Origin: Candidatus Poribacteria bacterium
GTDB lineage: Bacteria; Poribacteria; WGA-4E; WGA-3G
Assembly: GCA_022822275.1 (NCBI GenBank)
Contig: JAJEBZ010000145.1
Coordinates: 1 to 42,362 of the forward strand
DNA length: 42,362 nt
Direction: 5' to 3'
Under the pieces are notes generated by a model that did not search any database, was not told the origin of the DNA, and was given only the letters and a program-made list of their open reading frames with translations. The position numbers and the translations under genes are program-made. This document shows, in pieces, positions 34,007 to 42,239 of the stretch. Positions within the stretch are counted from its first letter, which is position 1. Each line of letters opens with the position of its first letter.

Positions 34007-35902
34007 ATGGAACAAACAGAGACAACAGATGTCGTAGATTTTACGAAGCAACGCACTGAATTAGAAGGCATTTCAAAATGGATATTTGAGATAGCATCAG
34101 TCTTTTTTGTTGGTTTCTACATCTATAGTGCGGGTTTTGGCACGGCTGCGGAACAATATCATCTCGGCATCTATCTTCTTCTTACTTTTGTTTTAATTGG
34201 CTTCCTATATAAATTCCATCAGAGTTCCCCTTCTAAACGTCCCTCTACTATTGATATATTGCTTGCAGGTTTGAGTGTAATTTCCATCGGTTATTGGATA
34301 GTAGAATATCCTAACATTGCTAACCGTGCAGGTGCATATACATCTTTAGATATTGTGATGGCTGCAATTGGTGTCATCATCAGTTTGGAAATGAGTCGGC
34401 GAACAGTGGGTTGGGGGTTACCCATCATCGCAGCGGTTGGAATATTGTACGCACTTTTTGGTCGCTATATGCCAAATGCTATTTCCCACCAAGGTTTTTC
34501 TATACAGCTAATTATTGAGCACTGCTTCTTTGCACAAGATGGGGTTTTCGGCATAATGGCAAGCGTTATGGCGACCTACGTCATTCTCTTTATCTTTTTC
34601 GGTGCGTTTTTAGAGAAATCAGGGGTTGGTCAGTTCTTCATAAACCTCCCGATGTCACTCACGGGGCGTTCAATTGGCGGTGCTGCGAAAGTTTCTGTCG
34701 TAACCTCTGGTTTCTTCGGTTCTGTTGCAGGAAGTGCCATTGCGAACACTGTCACAACCGGTGCTTTTACGATTCCATTGATGAAGCGAACAGGTTTTCG
34801 TCCGCATATTGCAGGTGCAGTTGAAGCATCTGCCTCTGTCGGTGGACAGTTCCTTCCCCCCGTGATGGGTGCGGGCGCATTCTTGATAGCGGAACGGACA
34901 GGTGTATCTTATAGCAAAATTGCCCTCATATCTATTGTCCCCGCAGTCTTATACTTTCTATCAGTTTGGGTGATGGTGCATTTTGAAGCAAAAAAACAGG
35001 GACTTGAACCGATTCCTACCGAAGAAATACCGAAACTTACCACACTCCTAAAAACAGGTTGGTATTACCTTTTACCACTCATTACACTCATTACTTCACT
35101 TATGTTGGGATATTCTCCACATAAATCTGCATTTTATTCTATTCTCGTCACTATTGTTGTAAGTTATTTCCGTCCAGAAACACGGTTAACACCGAAACGC
35201 ATCTGGGAAGCGATGGTCAACGGTTGCAAGAATTCACTTGCCATTGGTGGTGCAGTTGGAACTATTGGTGTCATCGTAGCTGTAATTGATCTGACAGGTT
35301 TAGGCACCATATTTCCAGGTTTAGTCGTTTCAATTGCAGGGAACAACAAAGCGATTGCTATTTTGTTTCTCGCTGCTGCTTCATTAGTGCTTGGTATGGG
35401 GATTCCTGTTACTGCTGCTTATCTCATTACATCCCAAATTGCTGTGCCAATTTTGATGGATCCAGAAATGGGGGTTCCGATGGTTGCAGCACATCTGATA
35501 ATATTTTGGTTGAGTCAAGATTCCAACATTACGCCCCCAGTTGCATTAGGAGCTTATGCGGGTGCTGCTATTGCAAGAGCGGATCCTTGGAAGACGGGTT
35601 GGGCATGTTTTAAATTTGCCAAACTGTTATATATCATGCCACTGTTATTTGCATATACACATATCCTATTTTTATCGGGAACTCTATTGCAACAGGTAAT
35701 GTCAGTTGTAACAGCATTGGTCGGTACAATCATCTTCTCTATTGTAACGATGGGTTTCTTTGTTAGGAAAACGCGTTGGTATGAATCTATATTGCTTGCG
35801 AGTGCTGCGTTTCTTGCATATACACATAACGTTTGGACGTTCATTATAGGCATGGCATTGTTTGCCGTAGTCTTTGTGGTTCAAAAACGGACTGCAGTGT
35901 AA
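34007..35902 (+). CDS. TRAP transporter fused permease (DctQ-DctM, TIGR02123 type)
   Basis: 631 aa, the usual length for fused 4TM/12TM TRAP permeases. The large domain carries the family signatures SGFFGSVAGSAIANTVTTGA and GAVEASASVGGQFLPPVMGAGAF, and a later GMGIPVTAAYLI repeat; at least a dozen hydrophobic segments are visible. These permeases import organic acids using an ion gradient and a TAXI-type periplasmic receptor, but no receptor gene is present in the window. It starts 6 nt after the outer-membrane gene, in the same operon. It ends 8 bp before the opposing gene's stop. Confidence 0.92.
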   Translation: MEQTETTDVVDFTKQRTELEGISKWIFEIASVFFVGFYIYSAGFGTAAEQYHLGIYLLLTFVLIGFLYKFHQSSPSKRPSTIDILLAGLSVISIGYWIVEYPNIANRAGAYTSLDIVMAAIGVIISLEMSRRTVGWGLPIIAAVGILYALFGRYMPNAISHQGFSIQLIIEHCFFAQDGVFGIMASVMATYVILFIFFGAFLEKSGVGQFFINLPMSLTGRSIGGAAKVSVVTSGFFGSVAGSAIANTVTTGAFTIPLMKRTGFRPHIAGAVEASASVGGQFLPPVMGAGAFLIAERTGVSYSKIALISIVPAVLYFLSVWVMVHFEAKKQGLEPIPTEEIPKLTTLLKTGWYYLLPLITLITSLMLGYSPHKSAFYSILVTIVVSYFRPETRLTPKRIWEAMVNGCKNSLAIGGAVGTIGVIVAVIDLTGLGTIFPGLVVSIAGNNKAIAILFLAAASLVLGMGIPVTAAYLITSQIAVPILMDPEMGVPMVAAHLIIFWLSQDSNITPPVALGAYAGAAIARADPWKTGWACFKFAKLLYIMPLLFAYTHILFLSGTLLQQVMSVVTALVGTIIFSIVTMGFFVRKTRWYESILLASAAFLAYTHNVWTFIIGMALFAVVFVVQKRTAV

Positions 35903-38072: not shown

Positions 38073-38843
38073 ATGACTTTCAAGAGTATAAAAGTGACCT
38101 GTATACTCAGTCTATTACTTACAACTATCTGGTATGTAAATGTGACTGATGCGGAGGATTTTGTAACAGATGGACTCGTAGCGATGTATACACTCAATCA
38201 ATCAGACCTTAAAGGGGACGTTGTCATGGATACGTCTGGTAACGATAACCATGCAAAATTAGTTGGCAGCCTTGATTTTGAAGAAGGTCCTATAGGAGAC
38301 GCGCTGAGCTTTAGCGGATCAGCAGGTAATTATGTGGAACTTCCCAATATGGATCCTTTTGAGTTTTCCTCTGTTGAATGTTATGCTTTAACAACAGACT
38401 TAGCTCCAACATATCAAGGCATAATTTCTACCCAAACATGGTCAGCAGGTAAGGTTCATTTCAAATTTCAAGCTAGTCAGATACAAGTTGACAAAAACGG
38501 AGGTGCTAAAATCGTTTCTGCTGCTGTTGCAAACACATGGTACCATATCATCTATACAATGAATTCTCAGGATAACGAACTCAAGTTATATGTAGACGGT
38601 GAGTTGGCTGCAGAAGGGGCTGCTGGTACTGATCCTGAAATCTGGATGAACCGTCGCATTGGTAGTGAACATGATGAAAATCGCTATCTACAAGGTATGG
38701 TTGATAACGTTCGTATCTATGATCGTGTTTTGACTAAAGAAGAGGTCATGCAGAACTTTGAGGCAAAATCCGACTCGCTACCCGTTGAACCTACAGACAA
38801 ACTTTCTACCACTTGGGGAGCACTCAAGAGTAAGAGAAACTAA
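38073..38843 (+). CDS. Secreted LamG-domain (concanavalin A-like) protein
   Basis: 256 aa. GGAG precedes the ATG. A signal peptide (CILSLLLTTIWYVNVTDA) leads to one LamG/jelly-roll domain: GLVAMYTLNQSD, DALSFSGSAGNYVELPN, NTWYHIIYTMNSQDNELKLY and MVDNVRIYDRVLTKEEV. Such domains bind carbohydrate or protein ligands outside the cell. The last ~20 residues (PVEPTDKLSTTWGALKSKRN) form a tail shared with the secreted protein at 41517-42239. The leader contains an inverted repeat ATCAGGATT/AATCCTGAT (37955-37963, 37995-38003) and a CCAAAAA/TTTTTGG hairpin before the ribosome site. Confidence 0.88.
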   Translation: MTFKSIKVTCILSLLLTTIWYVNVTDAEDFVTDGLVAMYTLNQSDLKGDVVMDTSGNDNHAKLVGSLDFEEGPIGDALSFSGSAGNYVELPNMDPFEFSSVECYALTTDLAPTYQGIISTQTWSAGKVHFKFQASQIQVDKNGGAKIVSAAVANTWYHIIYTMNSQDNELKLYVDGELAAEGAAGTDPEIWMNRRIGSEHDENRYLQGMVDNVRIYDRVLTKEEVMQNFEAKSDSLPVEPTDKLSTTWGALKSKRN

Positions 38844-38892
38844 TACCATTTTAAGTGATAATGCCTCATTACTAATTGGAAGAAACTTCATG

Positions 38893-38917
38893 CCCCCATA
38901 CGTTATCGCTATGGGGG
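38893..38917 (+). terminator. Hairpin behind the LamG gene
   Basis: CCCCCATA (38893-38900) and TATGGGGG (38910-38917) form an 8-bp stem with a 9-nt loop, about 50 nt after the stop. The next bases (ACTTCCCTTATCAGGGGGAC) contain no clear T-run and resemble part of the element behind hisB. Confidence 0.45.
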
Positions 38918-38947
38918 ACTTCCCTTATCAGGGGGACTTTTGAAAGA

Positions 38948-39185
38948 GGGTGTGTAAAGTTTTTGGCACCCTTTTTGTCAGAATCACGGATTTCGCGGAT
39001 TACGCGGAAGACGCGGAGAAAGACCTCTGCCTCTAATCGCATTGCTGAGATAACACTTATCCGTTACCATTACGATTTCAGGCTGGTGTCTTCTCCGTGC
39101 ACTCCGTGTAATCCGCGATTCCGTACACAAGGAAAATATGAAATTCCTAAATTGACACTTATAGTGACAAAAACTTTACACACCC
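38948..39185. mobile_element. MITE-like element, 238-bp form
   Basis: Perfect 13-bp ends GGGTGTGTAAAGT (38948-38960) and ACTTTACACACCC (39173-39185). Interior closely matches 9509-9824 without the doubled 27-bp unit. It also carries the AATCCGCG-type sequence of the tandem repeat at 638-774. ORF-track frame 38876-39202 runs through it but has no coding character. It ends 52 bp before galU. Confidence 0.75.
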
Positions 39186-39224
39186 TTAAAAGACATTCTT
39201 AATGGCAATTATTTAAAAAAGTGG

Positions 39225-39230
39225 TATAAT
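39225..39230 (+). promoter_or_regulatory. Minus-10 box for galU, 7 nt from the start codon
   Basis: A perfect TATAAT ends 7 nt before the galU ATG. Transcription from it would begin at about the A of the start codon, giving a leaderless or near-leaderless mRNA. No Shine-Dalgarno is present (AGTTCTT), and the -35 position is weak. Confidence 0.5.
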
Positions 39231-39237
39231 AGTTCTT

Positions 39238-40152
39238 ATGTCAAAGATTCAAAAGGCGATTATTCCGATCGCTGGATACGGAACACGTCTCTTCCCCGCA
39301 ACGAAAGCCGTGCCAAAAGCACTATTTCCAATTATAGACAAAGACGGTTTCGCAAAACCGATCATTCAGTTGATAATTGAGGAAGCACTATCAGCAGGCG
39401 TGGAAGAGGTGTGTCTCGTTGCACAACCCCATCAGGTTGAACCGATTACTGATTATTTTTCTGGGGATGTCCCAGAGGCAATCCGAGAAAAACCTGAATT
39501 GGCTTCACAAGCCGACATTTTGACTGAAATAGGTGAACGGTTGCAATTTGCTATTCAAGCAGATCCGCAAGGGTTCGGACATGCAATCTATTGCGCGCAG
39601 GATTTTGCGGCAGACGATCCTGTTATGATTCTGCTTGGCGACCATCTATATATATCTGAAACAGAATCCTCTTGTGCTAAACAGTTGGTAGATGTCTATG
39701 AGCAAGTTGGACAATCCGTGACGAGTCTTGATGTTTGTGATGAAAGCGAACTCTCTCTGAACGGTATTGTGCATGGCGAAGTATCTGACGAGAATCTAAG
39801 CCTATTCAAGTTAGCACGTATCTCGGAAAAGCCTTCTGTAGACTTTGCCCGAGAACACATGCAAGTTGAAGGGGTATGGGACGCGGGGAAAACACATAAA
39901 TACCTATGCCATTTCGGTATTGACCTTCTTACGCCACTTTTGTTTGATATACTGGATTACAACTACTGCAACAACATTCTGACACACGGTGAGATTCAGT
40001 TGCGGGATGCAATGGCTGAAATGGTGCGACAGGAAGGTATGTACGGTTTCCGTGTTGCTGGCAATCGTTATGATACAGGCAATCCACGAGAATTACTCAC
40101 AACTGCCCATGCCTTTGGTCTTCAAGGTCCTTATTGTGATGCCTTAATCTAA
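39238..40152 (+). CDS. galU: UTP--glucose-1-phosphate uridylyltransferase
   Basis: 304 aa, normal GalU length. It makes UDP-glucose from UTP and glucose-1-phosphate, for cell-surface polysaccharide and galactose metabolism, in the cytoplasm. Motifs: IPIAGYGTRLFPATKAVPKALFPI at the N-terminus, QADPQGFGHAIYCA, VMILLGDHLY and the late RYDTGNPRELL. Together with glgC and glgP it links the window to glucose-1-phosphate. It seems to lack a ribosome site. Its end overlaps the opposing UPF0173 gene by 9 bp. It could instead be another sugar nucleotidyltransferase of the same family, but GalU fits best. Confidence 0.88.
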   Translation: MSKIQKAIIPIAGYGTRLFPATKAVPKALFPIIDKDGFAKPIIQLIIEEALSAGVEEVCLVAQPHQVEPITDYFSGDVPEAIREKPELASQADILTEIGERLQFAIQADPQGFGHAIYCAQDFAADDPVMILLGDHLYISETESSCAKQLVDVYEQVGQSVTSLDVCDESELSLNGIVHGEVSDENLSLFKLARISEKPSVDFAREHMQVEGVWDAGKTHKYLCHFGIDLLTPLLFDILDYNYCNNILTHGEIQLRDAMAEMVRQEGMYGFRVAGNRYDTGNPRELLTTAHAFGLQGPYCDALI

Positions 40153-40854
40153 TGTTCCTCCCACCTCTAATTCTACTATCTCTACATCCTGATTAGCAGT
40201 TAATTGACGGTATTCTTCAACTGTACCGGTCAAAAGTGGAAAAGTGCCGTAGTGCATTGGGAGAACTGTGGGAACATTCAGTAGTTCTGTCGCATAAGCG
40301 GCTTCACGCGGTCCCATCGTGAAATGGTCACCTATAGGAATGATCGCTAAATCAGGTTGATATATTTCACCAATGATTTTCATGTCACCAAAAACACATG
40401 TGTCCCCAGCATAATATATTTTATATCCGTTTGCGAATTCAAGTACAAAACCTGCAGGTTCTCCTAAATAAACTATTGTTCCATCTTCTTCTACGCAGCT
40501 GCTGCTATGGTTGGCTGTAACCATTGTTGCTTTCACACCATCAACTGACACAGTGCCGCCTTTGTTCATTCCTATAGTGTTTTCAACCCCTTTACTTTCA
40601 AGGTATTTTGCTACTTCTATCATAGCCACGACAGTTGGTGAGTGCTTTTTTGCTATTGGGACAGCATCTTCCATGTGATCCCAATGTCCGTGTGTTATCA
40701 GCATAACGTCAAGGTTTTCAAAGGTTTTGAGTTCATCTGGACAAACAGGGTTGCTATCAACCCACGGATCTATTAAGTAGGTTTTACCACCGTTTTCAAT
40801 CTTACATGTCGCATGACCTAACCACGTTAGGTTTATTCCGTTATTTAGTTTCAT
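40144..40854 (-). CDS. UPF0173-type metal-dependent hydrolase (metallo-beta-lactamase fold)
   Basis: 236 aa. Zinc motif THGHWDHMED (HxHxDH), LGHATCKI opening, TANHSSS, GDTCVFGDM and MHYGTFPLLTG are all as in the UPF0173/YtkL family of stand-alone MBL-fold hydrolases, whose substrates are mostly unknown. AGGAAG lies just before the ATG on the minus strand. Convergent with galU. The upstream 40855-41023 gap shows no recognised signal other than AT-rich sequence. Confidence 0.92.
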   Translation of the reverse strand: MKLNNGINLTWLGHATCKIENGGKTYLIDPWVDSNPVCPDELKTFENLDVMLITHGHWDHMEDAVPIAKKHSPTVVAMIEVAKYLESKGVENTIGMNKGGTVSVDGVKATMVTANHSSSCVEEDGTIVYLGEPAGFVLEFANGYKIYYAGDTCVFGDMKIIGEIYQPDLAIIPIGDHFTMGPREAAYATELLNVPTVLPMHYGTFPLLTGTVEEYRQLTANQDVEIVELEVGGTLD

Positions 40855-41023
40855 TTAATCTTCCTATTCTTATCAAACTAATTAGATTGTAATTATATCA
40901 CAATCCAGTTTTTAATAGTGGTCTAAATTTTCCAGGGTTATTTAGTTTTAGGTATTTTGGTCGTTTTTTATCACAATCGTCGATCCTTCGGTTTGCTTAT
41001 TTTGACGAGTTAATTCATTCTTT

Positions 41024-41168
41024 GTCTGAACCAGGATTTTCAGGATTACCAGATTACCAGGATTTTTCTCATCAGATCCTATTCTAAAAGAGAACATAAA
41101 CGCGTATCAAAAATCCTTGATGAGGTAAATCCTGGTAATCTGGTAATCCTGAAAATCCTGGTTCAGAC
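41024..41168. repeat. Large hairpin: perfect 42-bp inverted repeat
   Basis: The arms at 41024-41065 and 41127-41168 are exact reverse complements over 42 nt. They consist of short runs such as CCAGGATTTTCAGGATTACC. A further 7 bp (CTCATCA/TGATGAG) pair inside after a 2-base mismatch. The loop contains GAACATAAACGCGTATC. The right arm is followed by AAAAACTTTACA, a partial MITE end. No ORF is inside. Confidence 0.9.
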
Positions 41169-41198
41169 AAAAACTTTACATCCTATTGTGTTTTTTTC

Positions 41199-41227
41199 TT
41201 GCATTTAATAATCAAAAATGCTATAAT
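41199..41227 (+). promoter_or_regulatory. Promoter candidate for the 41517 gene
   Basis: TTGCAT (41199-41204) and TATAAT (41222-41227) are 17 bp apart. A second TATAAT lies at 41268-41273 with TTGACC 15 bp before it. Either gives a leader of 235-280 nt, which contains no gene and a weak TTGG/CCAA stem near 41451-41472. Confidence 0.5.
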
Positions 41228-41516
41228 TTCATAAGAATTTGTTAATTTGACCTAAAAATAAACGTATTATAATCGTAACAAAGGATAATTTAATTGTAAA
41301 GTTGGCAATATCGGTATCATTTTGCTGGGTTCAGCTGCACTTTATTGCTTGGTTAATGTCAAATTCTGTAATTTACATAACAAGAACTATTTCGGTACAG
41401 CTAGCAAATCGAAATAGAATTAAGATTTATATAACATAATTATGATATTTTGGTAAGCGCGCTTTTTGCCAAGATACCATAAGAATGTGATTGAACGAAA
41501 AGGAGAATTCATAGCT

Positions 41517-42239
41517 ATGAAAAGAACAGCAATTTTATTAATAATAATTGCTTTTATTGCCATCACACCTTCAGTTTTTGCACAAGAGTGGCAACCTGCT
41601 GGTGATACATGGATTGAAAAATGGTGGGGTCTTGATTTAGTGCGTAACACCGGTGAACATGCTGATGCTGCTGCACGCGACTTTCTTGATGAAGGCACGG
41701 GTGGTGAAATTAATAATTATAAGGTCTCCACTCGCTGGGGCGCAGGTCTAACCGGGCAACTCACAGTTAACCTTCCTGACAATGGCGGTGCCCTTGGATG
41801 GTCCGTAATTACACTTGAAACGGGAAGTGATCGGAACATATCCAGGAGTCACGGTTTTGAAGATGAGAGTAATGTTGCATGGCACGGGATTATTCTTGTA
41901 TTGTCTCCAGATGACAGGACAACGACAATTTACCCCACGCATGATGATAATGCTCAAATCTGGCTAAACGGAGTACAAGTCTATAATAACCCATCATGGA
42001 CAAATGGAGTACATAATTCCCCTTCACCCACAGAAGTTGAACTTATTAAGGGTGAAAACTTCATACACTACAAGGTCAGTGAAGGTGTTGGCGGAGATTA
42101 CGTAAATCTGCGCTTTGATGAGGCAGATACTGATCTCAAGATCGCTCCAACCGTTGATGAACGTTTTCTTGATGTGCTTACGCCAGTTGAACCGAAAGGT
42201 AAACTGACAACTATATGGGCAGACATCAAACGTAAGTAA
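41517..42239 (+). CDS. Secreted protein of unknown family with shared C-terminal tail
   Basis: 240 aa from ATG 41517, which has AAGGAGA about 10 nt upstream; the ORF-track TTG at 41466 lacks a site. A signal peptide (AILLIIIAFIAITPSVFA, likely cut before QEW) precedes an all-beta-looking domain with tryptophans (WIEKWWGLDLV), a DDNAQIWLNG motif and GENFIHYKVSEG, reminiscent of secreted carbohydrate-binding beta-sandwiches. I cannot name the family. The C-terminus PVEPKGKLTTIWADIKRK matches the tail of the LamG protein at 38073-38843. A terminator hairpin follows within 25 nt. Confidence 0.8.
   Translation: MKRTAILLIIIAFIAITPSVFAQEWQPAGDTWIEKWWGLDLVRNTGEHADAAARDFLDEGTGGEINNYKVSTRWGAGLTGQLTVNLPDNGGALGWSVITLETGSDRNISRSHGFEDESNVAWHGIILVLSPDDRTTTIYPTHDDNAQIWLNGVQVYNNPSWTNGVHNSPSPTEVELIKGENFIHYKVSEGVGGDYVNLRFDEADTDLKIAPTVDERFLDVLTPVEPKGKLTTIWADIKRK

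Follow-up and report, generated by a model that had tools for sequence, protein, structure and literature searches.

Background

The LPXTG/sortase, PEP-CTERM/exosortase and GlyGly-CTERM/rhombosortase signals each combine a signature motif, a transmembrane helix and a basic cluster (described in PMC1569441 and PMC3237569). The type IX secretion system (T9SS) reads several classes of C-terminal signal. Its type A C-terminal domain (CTD) is a folded seven-strand Ig-like domain (PMC12618676), and the corresponding model, TIGR04183, is 72 positions long. Type B (TIGR04131), with its PorP/SprF shuttles, is the precedent for several signal classes being read through specialised shuttles; it needs as much as 235 aa of C-terminal sequence, and a shuttle gene is commonly the neighbour of its gene (PMC12618676). 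The single-cell study of Kamke et al. in 2014 reported T9SS-type tails in Poribacteria, did not find the Por structural genes, and left open the export route of the proteins concerned (PMC3909097). Later papers assign T9SS to the Bacteroidota (PMC7463736, PMC10202324).

This work concerns a window of 42,362 nucleotides, the whole stretch of DNA that was analysed, from a Candidatus Poribacteria bacterium. The Poribacteria are sponge symbionts and their relatives. Two secreted proteins of the window share a C-terminal tail, and we will argue that this tail belongs with the signals above while matching none of them.

Two secreted proteins and their tails

The relevant features of the window are these.

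38073..38843, + strand: secreted LamG (Laminin_G_3) protein, a tail carrier; ORF of 256 aa, PF13385 with E 2.8e-19
38073..38153, + strand: signal peptide MTFKSIKVTCILSLLLTTIWYVNVTDA of the LamG protein; hydrophobic h-region, modelled helix 4-24, inferred cleavage site
38325..38747, + strand: LamG/concanavalin-like domain; Foldseek matches to LamG/ConA-like lectin folds
38775..38840, + strand: C-terminal tail SLPVEPTDKLSTTWGALKSKRN of the LamG protein; matched by the tail profile, modelled as a low-confidence linker and a detached helix
41517..42239, + strand: second secreted protein (the 41517 protein), a tail carrier; 240 aa from the ATG at 41517
41517..41582, + strand: signal peptide MKRTAILLIIIAFIAITPSVFA of the 41517 protein; h-region 3.7 KD, inferred cleavage site
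42180..42236, + strand: C-terminal tail TPVEPKGKLTTIWADIKRK of the 41517 protein; tail profile E 1.2e-9

Both ORFs are present and end as a preliminary description of this DNA had claimed, the 41517 protein with LTPVEPKGKLTTIWADIKRK, and the signal peptides it reported are clear Sec signal peptides at both N-termini. The likeness of the two tails is far above chance. The same description held that the main domains are unlike, and they are: the LamG protein has its Laminin_G_3 match, whereas no Pfam or NCBIfam family matched the 41517 protein. When signal peptide and tail were removed and the bodies of the two families compared, hhalign returned a probability of 0.7% (no homology), so the bodies are unrelated and common ancestry of the two proteins is ruled out. 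The 41517 protein has three paralogues in its own genome, all bearing the tail, which makes a cluster of four.

The LamG protein was modelled by AlphaFold2 with 45 relatives. The body is predicted as a LamG/ConA-like jelly roll, mostly at pLDDT 90-97, and its Foldseek matches are generic lectin-like. The model breaks at residues 234-239, where pLDDT falls below 50, and the tail follows as a detached helix at 240-253 with a confidence of about 52. This model fits the tail as a flexible linear motif. AlphaFold2 of the 41517 protein from its single sequence reached a pLDDT of 33.

A family of tails in one genome

With the 22-aa LamG tail as sole query there are 78 matching places in the 4.53-Mb genome, and a profile built from 19 tails makes 91 matches there, the best with E 7.7e-12. 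The consensus is V-[ED]-P-x-x-K-[LIA]-[TAS]-T-x-W-[GA]-x-[LI]-K-x0-9. Counted relative to the tryptophan in 85 tails, the best conserved positions are W0 (85), G/A+1 (81), K+4 (80 of 81) and K-5 (77), followed by T-2 and L/I+3 (74 each), V-10 (73), L-4 (63) and P-8 (61), and more weakly by T-1 (56), E/D-9 (55) and T-3 (50). Mostly 1-5 more residues follow K+4, and the C-terminus is basic in most of the 85 tails. The pattern first proposed, PVEP..KL[ST]T.W..[IL]K, pointed to a real family but drew it too narrowly, since taken literally it fits just 7 of 86 tails.

At identical tail residues a codon comparison gives a third-base identity of 0.43, and all synonymous codons are in use at the conserved positions examined. 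Because the codons at conserved residues have diversified, selection acts on the peptide; a recent DNA repeat or mobile element is ruled out as the source of the tail on the same grounds. In the alignment of the LamG family, 6 of the 9 invariant columns fall in the tail.

The position of the tail is equally consistent. All 86 extracted tails of the genome end 0-7 residues before the stop, and among 348 ORFs of own-genome DNA examined no match is truly internal. The one match in those ORFs that was flagged as internal proves to be terminal, the tail there being extended by 9 residues.

A hydrophobic N-terminal signal sequence is found in all 72 full-length carriers of the genome. A crude signal-peptide rule accepts 68 of 74 tail ORFs against 91 of 274 other ORFs (Fisher 7e-21). 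The six tail ORFs that fail this rule have long n-regions or look like broken frames. A lipobox cysteine after the signal peptide is essentially absent, with one doubtful case among the 72 carriers. Type I secretion uses a C-terminal signal without an N-terminal signal peptide, and the full-length carriers have signal peptides. A Sec signal peptide together with a conserved C-terminal signal, the general mark of T9SS substrates, is what the carriers have.

The carriers are not one protein family

The preliminary description allowed that the whole carrier proteins might prove homologous. They are not: once signal peptide and tail are removed, the 72 carriers fall into 16 body clusters without detectable mutual homology. 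The largest cluster is LamG-type (41 carriers) and the 41517 family is a cluster of 4. The other bodies are propeller/TolB-like, NPCBM, CBM9, CBM_4_9, 3-keto-disaccharide hydrolase-like, LRR, right-handed beta-helix and unknowns, and at least 8 Pfam domain types are represented. In three larger carriers (C123, C207 and C148) a YYYR[LI]EDV domain immediately precedes the tail, and metallopeptidase-like and LRR parts are present as well in two of these proteins. The tail is found on short LamG proteins, at times in degenerate form, but the LamG domains within large multidomain exported proteins are without it. The tail therefore lies outside the LamG fold.

Taxonomic range

The tail profile matches all 85 Poribacteria genomes examined, covering 22 of 22 genera. 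The numbers run from 17 to more than 100 per genome, with about 90 in the window's own, so the earlier concern that the pattern might be found in only a few proteins can be set aside. The most deeply branching families have tails of the same sequence type, also terminal. There, 38 of 38 scored ORFs pass the checks on end position and hydrophobic start, the hydrophobic check being permissive; some further ORFs, truncated, stand outside the 38.

A GTDB-wide scan for KLTTTWGxL, covering 84,980 species, gave 221 confirmed places, and the best 80 of the 221 are all Candidatus Poribacteria. As far as these best 80 go, the tail is peculiar to the lineage, as had been suggested. In the same best 80 loci all 160 motif matches lie at most 9 residues from the stop and none is internal, and 148 of 150 complete ORFs have a signal peptide. 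The two exceptions are ORFs without a proper start. Within and beyond the window's genome the tail is tied to signal-peptide proteins, and the possibility that it occurs equally in cytoplasmic ones, raised in the preliminary description, does not hold.

Candidate type IX machinery in the same genomes

The SprA-like gene (TIGR04189, Sov/SprA) is one ORF of about 2155 aa per genome, with collinear matches to the model. The match with E 2.5e-47 runs over five collinear stretches and has 161 bits, under the 200-bit equivalog cut-off. All 14 aligned SprA-like members match TIGR04189 and no other family; a PDB search with the Poribacterial SprA-like profile matched no chain. The gene is present in 84 of 85 genomes and in 56 of the 56 good ones, and the sole miss is a genome 81% complete. 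PorV (NF033709, the PorV/PorQ family) is above cut-off in 9 of 9 genomes, with several PorV-family paralogues, and PorV of the PDB (6h3i_F) is matched at E 3e-10. The PorU-like C25 peptidase of the window's genome matches NF033707 with E 2.5e-125, its 419.5 bits falling just short of the 420-bit cut-off, and PDB PorU (6za2) with E 2e-36; the PorU/C25 family is found in 84 of 85 genomes at E<=1e-20, none above cut-off. GldM (TIGR03517) was found in 0 of 9 genomes by a search without a working positive control. Judged by these profile matches, the Poribacteria have what looks like a divergent form of the type IX machinery, with SprA-like, PorV and PorU-like components.

Canonical type A domains (TIGR04183) make 36-85 matches per genome, on mostly larger proteins. 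The median length is 749 aa for these carriers versus 262 aa for the tail carriers, with little size overlap between the two sets of cargo. LRR modules are common to both.

The preliminary description proposed looking for a processing enzyme that co-occurs with the tail across genomes. SprA-, PorV- and PorU-like candidates do co-occur, but none has a tail-specific link. In the window's genus a PorV gene has a tail gene nearby, and one further case comes from another family (L220); beyond these cases the adjacency was not seen. We dropped the linkage as a pointer to a partner because it is inconsistent outside the genus. Since the tail is universal in the phylum, phylogenetic profiling is unable to tie it to one partner either.

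What the tail may do

We believe its distribution makes the tail very likely a localisation signal, used in a second sorting step after Sec. As an overall explanation, we would say with good confidence that the Poribacteria have in it a C-terminal sorting signal specific to their phylum. The abundance of the tail, the signal peptides of its carriers and their unrelated bodies all favour the original reading of it as a sorting, anchoring or secretion signal. It probably sends mostly sugar-binding proteins to the cell surface or keeps them there.

The steps would be as follows. Carriers would cross the inner membrane by Sec via the N-terminal signal peptide. The flexible tail, V-[ED]-P-x-x-K-L-T-T-T-W-G-x-L-K with 0-9 often basic residues, would be a linear peptide for a dedicated receptor, and this putative receptor would read it in the periplasm or outer membrane. 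The small, mostly carbohydrate- or matrix-binding carriers would then be routed across or onto the outer membrane. The reader may be the divergent type IX apparatus, that is the SprA-like translocon working together with one of several shuttles of the PorV family, and the tail would then be a third, minimal T9SS signal class beside the Ig-like type A domain of the large Poribacterial proteins. We regard this SprA/PorV route as plausible, though with a little more doubt than belief; it rests on the co-occurrence, the precedent of a T9SS with several signal classes (PMC12618676) and the cargo modules in common. Against this route stand the patchy PorV linkage, the SprA-like match under its cut-off and with no chain in the PDB, the GldM result of 0 of 9 genomes (from the search lacking a working control), and a short unfolded tail that is unlike the folded CTDs of T9SS. 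That the tail is a third minimal type IX-type, or an entirely separate, outer-membrane sorting signal, universal in the phylum, not seen elsewhere and read by a PorV-like or other receptor, seems to us just short of an even call.

Other explanations have to be weighed. Export of the carriers may take a different route, with the tail docking them non-covalently to a surface receptor as a dockerin-like address. Carriers that are small binding domains, of the sort usual in a surface coat or matrix, would suit this, as would a tail predicted to be detached and flexible, and PorV paralogues without a fixed partner might act as the receptors. The genomic data are equal for an export signal and a docking ligand, however, and the receptor is putative, so we hold this to be possible but on the unlikely side. 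A covalent mechanism, with cleavage of the tail and transfer of the carrier to LPS or the wall in the style of LPXTG sortase, exosortase, rhombosortase or PorU, is less probable still. The invariant residues and basic end do suggest recognition, and PorU-like C25 peptidases are phylum-wide. But a transmembrane helix before the basic end is found in 0 of 85 tails, which excludes the standard tripartite sortase/exosortase layout, and the NCBIfam sorting models match 0 of 72 carriers.

The tail might instead be an in-plane membrane anchor, an amphipathic helix with L-4, W0 and L+3 on one face and basic residues at the lipid surface. The helix that AlphaFold2 places at the tail and the basic C-termini are what such an anchor would have. 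Its hydrophobic moment is ambiguous: at 100 degrees it is 0.18, versus 0.17 for shuffles, and the maxima lie at 110 and 160 degrees. V, P, T-2 and K-5 show more conservation than an amphipathic helix would require, and the helix is modelled at low confidence. All of this makes the anchor quite improbable. We give almost no credence to the idea that the tail was left behind by duplication of a single LamG family, or is a mobile repeat fusing to gene ends. It is true that 41 of the 72 carriers sit in the one LamG-type cluster and that many tail genes stand in tandem pairs. Yet 15 other clusters bear the tail, including LRR, propeller, CBM9 and NPCBM bodies, the tail codons are diversified, and no tail goes with the LamG domains that sit within large multidomain exported proteins. 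As a full explanation the idea fails on two counts, the unrelated bodies and the diversified codons.

If the sorting signal is accepted, the likely surface proteome of an entire uncultured phylum of sponge symbionts can be recognised by one peptide. Sequence alone is then enough to list the secreted and mostly carbohydrate-binding proteins concerned, as many as about 100 in a genome. If the reading as a third minimal signal is true, a linear peptide of 15 residues directs small lectin-like proteins, again as many as about 100 in a genome. The phylum-wide SprA-like, PorV and PorU-like genes make the export question of 2014 (PMC3909097) directly testable, and outside the Bacteroidota.

Comparison with known C-terminal signals

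The preliminary description knew of no named signal with this pattern, and we have come upon none. The 0 matches of the NCBIfam sorting models to the 72 carriers include TIGR04183. Literature searches, with most subscription papers outside their scope, found no description of this tail, and those on T9SS in Poribacteria gave no account of it.

Docking in the manner of dockerins would account for a common terminal address on so many binding domains. Dockerins, however, are folded calcium-binding repeats, and the tail is predicted to be a linear peptide. It resembles the sortase, exosortase and rhombosortase signals in being a short C-terminal region with a basic end, shared within one lineage by many signal-peptide proteins that are otherwise unrelated. 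Unlike the LPXTG, exosortase and rhombosortase signals it is without a transmembrane helix: the 85 aligned tails have no transmembrane or hydrophobic segment, and at most 13 residues follow the W.

The T9SS signals come closest. Like type A, the tail stands at the C-terminus of Sec-exported proteins and is common to many unrelated cargos, and the two occur in the same Poribacterial genomes; but the tail is 15-20 aa long, has no TIGR04183 match and sits on a nearly separate and smaller cargo set. It is far shorter than the type B signal, and the consistent adjacency to a shuttle gene, here PorV, was not seen. C-terminal sorting tails are a known kind, and by sequence comparison this tail is an undescribed variant of it. 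The variant is new because it matches no NCBIfam model, has no transmembrane helix and is far shorter than the T9SS domains: the CTDs that T9SS reads are folded and about 70 residues or more, whereas the Poribacterial tail is about 20 residues and unfolded.

Candidate secretion components

The Por structural genes of Poribacteria were reported missing in 2014 (PMC3909097). Judged from sequence, this statement would be contradicted by a SprA/Sov-like protein, encoded by a single ORF in genome G000, that is found in 84 of the 85 Poribacterial genomes. The relevant loci (L-numbers) are as follows.

L176 (contig C56), 7181-13645 (-): SprA/Sov-like protein, 2155 aa, TIGR04189 E 2.5e-47
L207, 5390-6391 (-): PorV-family gene
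L207, 6403-11994 (-): PorU-like C25 peptidase, 1864 aa, FlgD-like C-terminal domain
L204, 2845-5847 (+): 1001-aa protein, T9SS-type C-terminal end

The two L207 genes adjoin each other, and very large ORFs (1.7-1.9 kaa) adjoin further PorV genes too. The gene of the L204 protein, which matches no Pfam family, is the immediate upstream neighbour of the best PorV-family gene; L215 and L225 also have a neighbour of similar size.

Tail genes

Tandem pairs of paralogues are frequent among the tail genes of the window's own genome (e.g. L036, L050, L051, L054, L055, L063, L065). Three tail-bearing ORFs lack a start region and are probably frameshifts or pseudogenes.

L046, 3629-4063
L076, 1063-1476
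L086, 4001-4498

Upstream of its tail genes, the window encodes a TRAP transporter permease in fused form at 34007-35902 (TIGR02123, E 3e-184).

In larger proteins of L090, L187 and L189 (contigs C123, C207 and C148), two of which have metallopeptidase-like and LRR parts, the tail comes immediately after a YYYR[LI]EDV domain. In other bacteria this domain is commonly followed by a T9SS domain.
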